Assembly: GCF_018141545.1 (NCBI RefSeq)
Contig: NZ_CP064356.1
Location: forward strand, 3,237,001-3,301,000
DNA length: 64,000 nucleotides
DNA from: Miltoncostaea oceani
Lineage (GTDB): Bacteria > Actinomycetota > Thermoleophilia > Miltoncostaeales > Miltoncostaeaceae
Direction: 5' to 3'
Part shown: positions 53,611-57,868 of the stretch, piece by piece
Layout: each line of letters opens with the position of its first letter
Position numbering within the stretch: position 1 is the first letter of the stretch
Position numbers and translations under genes: made by a program
The notes under the pieces: generated by a model
What the model was told of the DNA's origin: nothing
What the model saw: only the letters and a program-made list of their open reading frames with translations
Databases searched by the model: none

Positions 53611-54184
53611 AGCGACGTCACCTCCGGAGCGTCACGTTCCCGGAGCCCCGGCGGCGGCGCCTCAGCTGGTGGAGACGGACGGCCCCTCGCCCCGAGCGGG
53701 GCTCAGAGCGACGGACCGCCCTCTATCGCCGTGTCCAGAGGCCGTCACCTCCCCGCGGCCAACCGCCCGTCCGGGCGTTGATCGTCCGGCCACGTGGTCG
53801 TGGTGGTCCGTACGGGGTGCGCCGCATCGTGGCGCGCGCTGGGAGACGCGACATCGTCGGGACGTCGTCCGGGCGAGGTGCTCCGTTCGACCGCGAAGCG
53901 CTCTGGAGCGCGACCGTCAGGATCCCCCGTGGGTTGCCCCTCAGGGTGACGTATGGAGCGCGGTCGACCTGCTGTCGCCTGTGCATCCCGTCCTCATCCC
54001 GTTCCCGCGGTTCGACCGTGCAAGCGGGGCACTGGATGGAGCGGCGCCGCTCACGATCTCTGCATCGACCATGGCCCCTTCCGGGACCCGCGTCAAGGTC
54101 TGGGAGGGAACGTCTCGAGGGGGCTTCCGATCGGGGTGCCCGGCTCGCTAGGCTTCGGGGTCGTGGGCCTTCACGGGCCCCCGG
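53611..54184. other. 574-bp region without a convincing gene
   Basis: Between the terminator and tRNA-Thr I see only frames with composition like shadows on both strands, and no ribosome site with a plausible start. No clear inverted repeat or tRNA-like fragment was noticed. It could be degraded sequence next to the tRNA or hold a non-coding RNA. Confidence 0.4.
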
Positions 54185-54257
54185 GCCGACGTAGCTCAGT
54201 TGGTAGAGCACTTCACTCGTAATGAAGGGGTCCGCGGTTCGAATCCGCGCGTCGGCT
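54185..54257 (+). tRNA. tRNA-Thr (CGT)
   Basis: 73 nt, acceptor GCCGACG/CGTCGGC, D-loop TAGCTCAGTTGGTAGAG, anticodon CGT in CTCGTAA, T-arm GGTTCGAATCC. CCA not encoded. Confidence 0.95.
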
Positions 54258-54297
54258 TCCCCTCAGGTGGCGGGGTCTCTACCCGGGACGGTTCCGC

Positions 54298-54933: not shown

Positions 54934-55445
54934 CAGTCCCCCGCCCCGATCCCGCGTGTCTCGGTGACGTAGGCCGCCAGGTTGGCGAGGGTCTGCCGGC
55001 CGCCCTCGACCGCGTGGTACCTCTCCACGGCCACGTCGCGCAGCTCCCTCGTGGGGAACACCGTGACCATCTCGATCCGCGTCGCGACGCCGTCGGGCGT
55101 GAAGGTGAGGACCGACGTGAACGCGTCCGGGTCGTCGCGGGACTCACCGTGGCGCAGCACGATCCGCTCCGGCGGGGTGATCTCCGTCCAGGTGATCCAC
55201 TCCGGGTAGTCCGTCCCGTCCGGCCCGTGCATCGTGAACTCCCACACCCCGCCAACCTGGAACGCGAACGCCTGCGTGGTGGTGGTGAACCCCTCCGGCC
55301 CCCACCACCGCGACAGGTGCCGGACCTCGGTGAACGCCGCGAACACGAGCTCCCGCGGCGCCGGGATGACGCGGTCGATCGCGATCTCGCGGTCCGCCGT
55401 CGCCGACGGCGCCTGCACGTGCGCGTCCCGTCCCGTCGCCGCCAT
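54933..55445 (-). CDS. SRPBCC (AHSA1-like) protein, cassette 3
   Basis: 170 residues. REIAIDRVIPAPRELVFAAFTEVRHLSRWWGPEGFTTTTQAFAF, VWEFTMHGPDGTDYPEWITWTEITPPERIV and GGRQTLANLAAYV show the AHSA1 pattern, with the WWGPEG motif shared with cassette 2. It starts 3 bp after the ArsR stop and is followed by the DHFR-like gene. Confidence 0.92.
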   Translation of the reverse strand: MAATGRDAHVQAPSATADREIAIDRVIPAPRELVFAAFTEVRHLSRWWGPEGFTTTTQAFAFQVGGVWEFTMHGPDGTDYPEWITWTEITPPERIVLRHGESRDDPDAFTSVLTFTPDGVATRIEMVTVFPTRELRDVAVERYHAVEGGRQTLANLAAYVTETRGIGAGD

Positions 55446-55448
55446 CCC

Positions 55449-55790
55449 TCACCCCTCCCGTCGAGTCTGCTCGAGGTCCTGCACGTACGCGTCGAGGCGG
55501 TCGAAGCTCTCGTTCCAGAACCGCTCGAACCCGCCGGTCCACTCATGAAGCGGCCGCAGCCCACGGGCGTCGAGGCGGTACAGGCGCTGACGCCCCTCCC
55601 GGCGGTCCCGCACCAGCCCCACCTCCCGGAGCACCCGCAGGTGCTTCGACGCCCCCGGCTGGGTCGTCCCCAGCTCCCGGGCCACCTCCGTCACCGGCCG
55701 CTCACCCGCCCGCAGCAGCGTCAGGATCTGCCGCCGCTGCGGCTCGGCGATCGCGTTGAAGACGTCGGAGGTGGTCGCGGCCCGTGCCAT
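55449..55790 (-). CDS. ArsR-family repressor, copy 3
   Basis: 113 residues. A winged helix: VFNAIAEPQRRQILTLLRAGERPVTEVARELGTTQPGASKHLRVLREVGLVRDRREGRQRLYRL, then DARGLRPLHEWTGGFERFWNESFDRLD. No metal site. It heads the third ArsR-SRPBCC cassette. The upstream region contains ATAT-TCTC-ATAT, a weak palindromic candidate operator. Confidence 0.92.
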   Translation of the reverse strand: MARAATTSDVFNAIAEPQRRQILTLLRAGERPVTEVARELGTTQPGASKHLRVLREVGLVRDRREGRQRLYRLDARGLRPLHEWTGGFERFWNESFDRLDAYVQDLEQTRREG

Positions 55791-55903
55791 GCGCTGATCA
55801 TATTCTCATATCGGCATGCGTCAACCCGTGGGATCCGATGATTCGTGGCGGAGGCGACCATGGCATCGGGGGCGGCACGCGAGTTCCCCGCCGCGGGTCC
55901 GTG

Positions 55904-55919
55904 TAGCGTCGGGCCGGTG
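55904..55919 (+). promoter_or_regulatory. Leaderless-type -10 of the nuclease-like operon
   Basis: TAGCGT at 55904-55909 lies seven bases before the GTG at 55917, the spacing seen at other leaderless-looking starts in the window. No convincing -35 was picked out. Confidence 0.5.
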
Positions 55920-57068
55920 AGCATCGACCTCCAGGGAGGCGGGGTGTTCCTCCTCGACGGAGGGGAGTCCCTCGCGGAGCTGACGGAGGCGCCGTTCGCG
56001 AGCGAGGACGACTTCCAGGCCCTGGTCGCTCGGCACCCGCGCTTGATCGCCGCCGCGCTCTCGGAGGAGGGCACGTCCCGCTGGCTCCTCGTCGCCCGGG
56101 AGCAGGGGATCGCCGAGACGCTCGACGGGTCCCTGCGCTGGTCGGTCGACCACCTCCTCCTCGACGGAGAGGGGGTGCCGACCCTCGTCGAGGTGAAGCG
56201 CTCCACCGACACCCGGCTTCGTCGCGAGGTCGTCGGGCAGATGCTCGACTACGCCGCCGGAGCGGCGGCCAGCTGGCGGGCATCGGACCTGCGCGGCCAG
56301 GTCGAGGCGACGGATCCCGACGCGCTGATCGGACTGCTCGGCCCCGACGCGGAACCAGAGGTCTTCTGGGGCCGGGTGGAGTCCAATCTTCGCGCGGGGC
56401 GCCTGCGGCTCGTCTTCCTCGCCGACCGGATACCGACCGAGCTCGAGCGGATCGTCGAATTCCTGGACGCGCAGATGGAGCTCTGCGAGGTCCGGGCGGT
56501 CGAGCTACGCCGCTTCAGCGAACCCGGAGGGCGGTCGACGCTCGTCACGCGACCGGTGGGCCGCACCGCGATGGCCTCGACCCGTGGCGCCGGGGGCACC
56601 CCGGGACGGCAGTGGGACGAGGCGTCGTTCCTGGAGGACCTCGCCGCGAAGGGAGGCCGGCTCCAGGCCGAGCGCATGGTCTGGCTGATCTCCGCCTTCC
56701 GTGCCCGCGATCTGCGGCTCTGGTTCGGGCGCGGGATCCGAGCCGGCTCGCTCATCCCCATTCGCGACGTCCCTGACGGACGCCGCTTCTACCCCCTCGG
56801 CTTCTGGAGCTCGGGCTCGGTGGAGGTCCAGTTCCAGCACATGCAGCCGCCCTTCGACCGCACCGAGATGCAGGAGGCGTTCGCCGATCGCCTCGAAGCG
56901 ATCCCGGGCGTGAGCATCCCCCGCGACCGGCTCGGCAAACGGCCGAGTTTCCCCCTCTCGCTGGTCGTCGAGCAGGCCTCCGCGGAGGAGTTGATCGCGA
57001 CGCTCGACTGGTGCCTCGAGCGCTCAGTCCAGGAGCCGACACCACCCCGCAGCCCCGATCCTGGGTGA
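55917..57068 (+). CDS. PD-(D/E)XK nuclease-like protein, unknown family
   Basis: 383 residues from a GTG. An N-terminal segment (SEDDFQALVARHPRLIAAAL, residues 29-48) precedes a nuclease-type core: WSVDHLLLDGEG (Asp78), TLVEVKRSTDTR (Glu92, Lys94), and REVVGQMLDYAAGAA (Gln108), the D...ExK...Q order of PD-(D/E)XK enzymes such as NucS/DUF91. The other 240 residues (region ERMVWLISAFRARDLRLWFGRGIR, then FYPLGFWSSGSVEVQFQHMQPPFD) have no family I recognise. Cleavage activity is inferred only. It overlaps the next gene by 4 bp. Confidence 0.78.
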   Translation: MSIDLQGGGVFLLDGGESLAELTEAPFASEDDFQALVARHPRLIAAALSEEGTSRWLLVAREQGIAETLDGSLRWSVDHLLLDGEGVPTLVEVKRSTDTRLRREVVGQMLDYAAGAAASWRASDLRGQVEATDPDALIGLLGPDAEPEVFWGRVESNLRAGRLRLVFLADRIPTELERIVEFLDAQMELCEVRAVELRRFSEPGGRSTLVTRPVGRTAMASTRGAGGTPGRQWDEASFLEDLAAKGGRLQAERMVWLISAFRARDLRLWFGRGIRAGSLIPIRDVPDGRRFYPLGFWSSGSVEVQFQHMQPPFDRTEMQEAFADRLEAIPGVSIPRDRLGKRPSFPLSLVVEQASAEELIATLDWCLERSVQEPTPPRSPDPG

Positions 57069-57442
57069 TCGGGTGGCACGTCAGTGTCAGCCGCCAGGCG
57101 GCTGATCGCCGGGCACCCGCCACGGGTGACACGGAGAGGGGAGCGCGGATCGCCGTCTGGCAGACGGGCTCCGGTGGCCTCGGCTGGATCGATGCGCTCG
57201 TGCGAGAAGGCCGCGCGCTCAACCTCGGCGGCAACGGCTACCCGTACCGGTACACCGCGCCCGCCCGACACCTCCTTCCGGCGATCGAGGATGGCCCGCC
57301 GGAGGCTCGCGATCCGTGGGTACACGGCTCGGGCGACATGCTCGGGGAGGATTGGAGTGGACGGACCGTGATCGACCGTCCGGCCGCCCGCGACTGCCCA
57401 CCCGACGAATGGCTCGTGGTCGAAGCGTGGGACGAGAGTTGA
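57065..57442 (+). CDS. Unknown protein coupled to the nuclease-like gene
   Basis: 125 residues from a GTG overlapping the upstream stop (GTGA). WHVSVSRQAADRRAPATGDTERG, GLGWIDALVREGRALNLGGNGYPYRYTAPARHLLPAI and PPDEWLVVEAWDES look like a compact soluble alpha/beta protein. I recognise no domain. The tight coupling suggests that the two proteins work together, for example as nuclease and specificity or immunity partner; this is inference. Confidence 0.6.
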   Translation: MIGWHVSVSRQAADRRAPATGDTERGARIAVWQTGSGGLGWIDALVREGRALNLGGNGYPYRYTAPARHLLPAIEDGPPEARDPWVHGSGDMLGEDWSGRTVIDRPAARDCPPDEWLVVEAWDES

Positions 57443-57502
57443 CCGACACCTGATCCGGGCGGCTCCGGGTCGCAATCCCGTCGAACCCTGACCGCACCGA
57501 GC

Positions 57503-57868
57503 TCACCCGGCGGCGCGGCGCACGATCGCGGCGATCCGCTCCTCCGTCGCCGCGTCGAGGGCCGCGAGGAACCACGCGGCCCCGACGAGCTGGTCCGGCG
57601 CCCCCTCCTCGACGGAGATGTCCGCCTTCTCCGTCAGGCCGAACGACATCACCCCGTCATCGACGCGGAAGAAGCAGAGGACGGGACCGCCCTTCGTGTA
57701 CCCCGGCATGCCGTACCAGAGCTTCGGGCGGAGCTCCGGGACGCTCTCGAGGATCACCTCGTGGACACGCCGGCAGATCGACCGGTACGGCTCGTCGAAC
57801 GAGGCGATCTTCGCGGTCACCGCGTCCTCGTCGTCGCCGGCCTTCTTCGACCTCTTCCTCTCCGCCAC
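57503..57868 (-). CDS. DUF1801 protein (YdhG-like)
   Basis: 121 residues from GTG 57868 (an in-frame GTG at 57877 lies too close to the AGGAGAG site). EPYRSICRRVHEVILESVPELRPKLWYGMPGYTKGGPVLCFFRVDDGVMSFGLTEKADI is the DUF1801 signature (P.L...L.YGMP.Y). Members may bind iron or small ligands; no function is established. A 26-bp palindrome lies 36 bp upstream. Confidence 0.87.
   Translation of the reverse strand: MAERKRSKKAGDDEDAVTAKIASFDEPYRSICRRVHEVILESVPELRPKLWYGMPGYTKGGPVLCFFRVDDGVMSFGLTEKADISVEEGAPDQLVGAAWFLAALDAATEERIAAIVRRAAG

Follow-up and report, generated by a model that had tools for sequence, protein, structure and literature searches.

We describe a putative stand-alone PD-(D/E)XK endonuclease of Miltoncostaea oceani that probably serves as a solo, restriction-like defence against foreign DNA. 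The gene, which we call ORF1, lies near the end of the 64,000 nt stretch of DNA that was analysed (the window), and its product belongs to a widespread family that carries neither a Pfam nor an NCBIfam name. Our reading of its function is based on the active site, a predicted fold of the NucS/EndoMS type, a conserved second domain, a wide and patchy spread and a neighbourhood of defence genes. The small gene directly downstream, ORF2, is a neighbour of the nuclease gene only here; the two do not make a conserved two-gene system.

The nuclease gene and its family

ORF1 occupies positions 55917..57068 of the forward strand, begins with a GTG codon and encodes 383 aa; an in-frame GTG at 55845 is a possible earlier start that would add 24 aa. 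ORF2 (57065..57442, forward strand) also begins with GTG and encodes 125 aa. Both ORFs are real at the positions given in the initial annotation. The third-position GC, 0.90 in ORF1 and 0.81 in ORF2 versus 0.93–0.99 in five nearby genes, fits coding sequence, and its lower values perhaps reflect a foreign origin of both genes. The pair had also been credited with a −10 box of its own, which we did not recover: a scan for sigma-70-type promoters within 55400–57700 gave no site on the forward strand, and the sole site observed was on the reverse strand, ahead of the divergent ArsR gene.

Searches with the ORF1 protein against Pfam (E ≤ 1) and NCBIfam produced no named family, and PDB sequence searches, with the single sequence as well as with a profile, produced only designed-repeat or chance matches. 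The scan of 84,980 species genomes, by comparison, yielded 447 relatives from both bacteria and archaea. The best 80 of the 447 are mostly full-length proteins (about 380 aa) with 35–55% identity, found in Actinomycetota, Chloroflexota, Bacteroidota, Bacillota, Planctomycetota, Methanothrix and other taxa. In locus L003 the reading frame of the nuclease homologue is broken, and a gene close by looks, by eye, like McrC.

The nuclease core predicted in the initial annotation, D78, E92, K94 and Q108 (positions 56148..56240 on the forward strand, counted from the start at 55917), is indeed present, and these four residues together with Y112 are invariant in all 67 aligned relatives. ORF1 has the features by which the PD-(D/E)XK superfamily is recognized, a conserved D and an E-x-K on the restriction-endonuclease core fold. 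The nuclease domain spans residues ∼25–216 and is followed by a C-terminal domain of about 140 aa (residues ∼231–372); the mean column identity in the 67-member alignment is 72% in the former and 51% in the latter. The C-terminal part had been described as unrecognised, which holds as far as Pfam and NCBIfam are concerned, but it is conserved across the family. A match of this domain to the TSG101 UEV fold (Z 5.4) was too weak to use.

Comparison with NucS/EndoMS and other nucleases

The AF2 model of ORF1 (pLDDT 90.7) has as its top VIA-align match the catalytic domain of NucS/EndoMS (2vld; Z 12.6, rmsd 2.2, 108 residues), and the EndoMS–DNA structure 5gke aligns with Z 12.2. The structural match is confined to chain residues 126–233 of NucS/EndoMS. 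The next match is SduA of Shedu (8ps4, 8ps5; Z 9.0), followed by other restriction-type nucleases; the model also aligns with the FokI and McrC cores. In an hhalign comparison with the NucS family of the host genome, D78, E92, K94, Q108 and Y112 of ORF1 fall on D136, E149, K151, Q161 and Y165 (E-value 0.0013, but a probability of only 18.7). The catalytic residues of EndoMS are D159, E173 and K175 (PMC7736090), and the spacing of the D/E/K triad, 14 and 2 residues (D-x13-E-x-K), is the same in ORF1, which also shares the Q..xY motif downstream of the catalytic E-x-K. The invariant catalytic residues and the structural match to NucS/EndoMS support the assignment of ORF1 as a putative PD-(D/E)XK nuclease.

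These similarities are also the arguments for the main rival explanation, that ORF1 serves DNA repair, as a divergent paralogue of NucS/EndoMS that cuts mismatched or branched DNA of its own genome: NucS/EndoMS has the closest fold, and the catalytic spacing is identical. We nevertheless regard this explanation as rather unlikely. The genome has true NucS genes at two other sites (C1:1435890 and C2:30420), ORF1 lacks the N-terminal dimerisation/DNA-binding domain of NucS (only ∼25 residues precede the nuclease domain), and both the patchy distribution of the family and the defence genes found next to its members (see below) speak against a repair function. With the N-terminal domain absent, a different C-terminal domain in place and NucS genes present elsewhere in the genome, ORF1 is not NucS itself. 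It has no match to the Pfam NucS_C family (PF01939), and no other Pfam family is matched at E ≤ 1; distant relatives of ORF1 (L023, L019 and L016) match PF01939 weakly. The second NucS homologue of the host, on contig C2 (L164:1405-2136), adjoins a gene that by eye encodes a RecQ-like helicase.

Among known and candidate defence proteins, PADLOC gave a match to PDC-S11, one of its candidate systems (E-value 2e-9; ORF1 residues 17–209 versus positions 12–178 of the 358 in the model). The PDC-S11 model PDLC04916 is matched by all 67 aligned relatives (best E-value 5.9e-18), and the neighbour of one ORF1 homologue matches a PDC-S11 model at 6.5e-133. The match of ORF1 itself is limited to the nuclease half and falls short of a full-length match. 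Literature searches on PDC-S11 and on NucS-like defence nucleases turned up no experimental study of a protein of this type.

Shedu SduA likewise contains a PD-(D/E)XK domain, acts in defence as the product of a single gene and, as noted, gives the best fold match after NucS/EndoMS. However, ORF1 has no match to the Shedu family (SduA, DUF4263) in Pfam or PADLOC (E ≤ 1), and its nuclease domain is N-terminal, while that of SduA is C-terminal.

A further relationship is seen in sister proteins in which a nuclease half of the ORF1 type is fused to DUF4268 (PF14088), as in L011 (1066-2298) and, by eye, in L013. Conversely, a protein of locus L004 (1018-1932) joins DUF4268 to the C-terminal domain of the ORF1 family and has no nuclease. 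DUF4268 is most often tied to the GmrSD type IV restriction enzymes (PMC4619093); ORF1 differs from these in having another C-terminal domain and neither a GmrS nor a GmrD part. The different pairings of the nuclease half, the C-terminal domain of the family and DUF4268 look like domain exchange, and the mixing seen in L011 and L004 would point to a DNA-cutting unit whose recognition parts can be swapped.

Genomic setting and probable function

Upstream of the nuclease gene, the DNA is syntenic with a complete congeneric genome (L183) from galE onwards, past tmk, as far as the 3′ end of a tRNA-Thr gene (CGT anticodon; 54184..54260, forward strand), where synteny breaks off. The nuclease gene, ORF2 and a DUF1801-like gene are absent from that genome. 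Since synteny ends at the tRNA and these genes are missing from the related genome, the segment behind tRNA-Thr is strain-variable; no repeat of the tRNA-Thr 3′ end marking a far island edge was found within the window, and an integrated island is for this reason not proven. The distribution of ORF1 is patchy as well (5/61 relatives, 19/396 in the phylum).

The position of the gene in strain-variable DNA downstream of a tRNA gene, along with relatives on plasmids (22 records) and in three viral contigs, could be taken to mean that ORF1 is cargo of mobile elements, used in competition between elements or in element maintenance and not in defence of the host. We consider this improbable, given that a search of 50,697 phage records gave no match and that most relatives reside on ordinary contigs, often adjoining defence genes.

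To characterize these neighbourhoods we used proteins of at least 150 aa located within two genes of the nuclease in about 79 loci, with a PADLOC threshold of E ≤ 1e-10. The neighbours matched 242 PADLOC families (96 proteins) and 187 families (98 proteins), against six for the 97 control proteins, which came from elsewhere in some of these genomes. Because one defence gene can match many PADLOC models, the ratio of 429 to 6 families makes the genes look more numerous than they are, and the contrast gives a direction and not an effect size, the control regions being few (16 usable), arbitrary and taken from some of the genomes only. Among the individual neighbours are a type III restriction enzyme, a type I methylase, DrmD/PbeA-type helicases, HmaC and PDC-S37/Hhe. 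Taken over the whole family, defence families are enriched beside ORF1 relatives in comparison with the control; at the M. oceani locus itself the immediate neighbours (ArsR, AHSA1, RibD-like and DUF1801-like genes) are not defence genes, a point against a function in solo defence. Of the families encoded downstream of the nuclease, none was shared by more than 2 of 70 loci, and we conclude that the nuclease gene stands alone.

In the solo defence that we favour, the N-terminal half of the protein would cut DNA with the help of a metal ion, by analogy with EndoMS, and the C-terminal domain, whose place is taken by DUF4268 in sister proteins, may select the target or sense the invader. The enzyme is probably dimeric, like NucS. 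A more specific version of this proposal, which we put forward tentatively, is that the family arose by recruitment of the NucS/EndoMS catalytic domain from mismatch repair and combines it with interchangeable C-terminal target-recognition domains (its own or DUF4268) into a single-gene, solo restriction system. If true, the defence inventory would gain a solo nuclease family without a name, present in bacteria and archaea, the fold of a mismatch-repair nuclease would be linked to restriction-like immunity, and there would be a concrete target-recognition domain to test.

The downstream gene

ORF2 starts within the stop codon of ORF1, as originally described, its GTG overlapping the TGA in the sequence GTGA, and the two genes share these four bases. 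The start is in line with the family: the N-terminal Met that is invariant in 11 ORF2 relatives, two residues before GW/GF, falls at this GTG. The initial annotation had read the pair as a tightly coupled two-gene unit of a sort typical of unlisted defence or DNA-repair systems. A true lineage-specific system of this kind, a nuclease plus a regulator or antitoxin, would agree with the four-base overlap, which favours translational coupling, and with the low third-position GC of both genes, which fits a shared foreign origin. Still, we find it very unlikely. A relative of ORF2 was present in none of 83 nuclease loci and nowhere in 40 nuclease-bearing genomes, and the latter negative is meaningful because the same profile does detect a relative in genome G386. 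In the nearest relative locus (L002) the nuclease is present and no ORF2 follows it. Conversely, the phylum search gave two genomes with a clear ORF2 relative, both of which lack the nuclease, and ORF2 relatives live on mobile elements apart from it. With no co-occurrence of the relatives of the two genes in these loci and genomes, where homologues were never adjacent, the two-gene unit is refuted. A four-base overlap between genes does not by itself make a good case for a two-gene system.

The statement that ORF2 has no recognisable domain is correct with respect to Pfam, but relatives do exist. They form a small family without a name (about 110–130 aa) with the motif GW...GYP.RYTA...AWDQS, and they are sparse: 13 plasmids, two genomes of another order, a filamentous-phage-like contig and one actinobacterium. 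A relationship of ORF2 to the nuclease was rejected, and a weak match to photolyase (E-value 0.058) was treated as chance. The structural model of ORF2, built from two sequences, is of low confidence (pLDDT 72.9) and gave no structural match above Z 3.7, too little to name a fold.

The best fit for ORF2 is an accessory gene of mobile elements. It would be a separate passenger of such an element that landed directly behind the nuclease in the M. oceani genome, where it is possibly co-transcribed with the nuclease, yet is not a conserved partner of it. Copies of the family are found at L126:5001-5396, L132:4001-4396, L128:3807-4154 and L134:4995-5324, and two plasmid copies lie near Tn3 transposase and toxin–antitoxin genes. 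The relative in the actinobacterium (L027:1495-1884) sits in inverted orientation between genes that by eye encode homoserine kinase and threonine synthase, as if inserted there.
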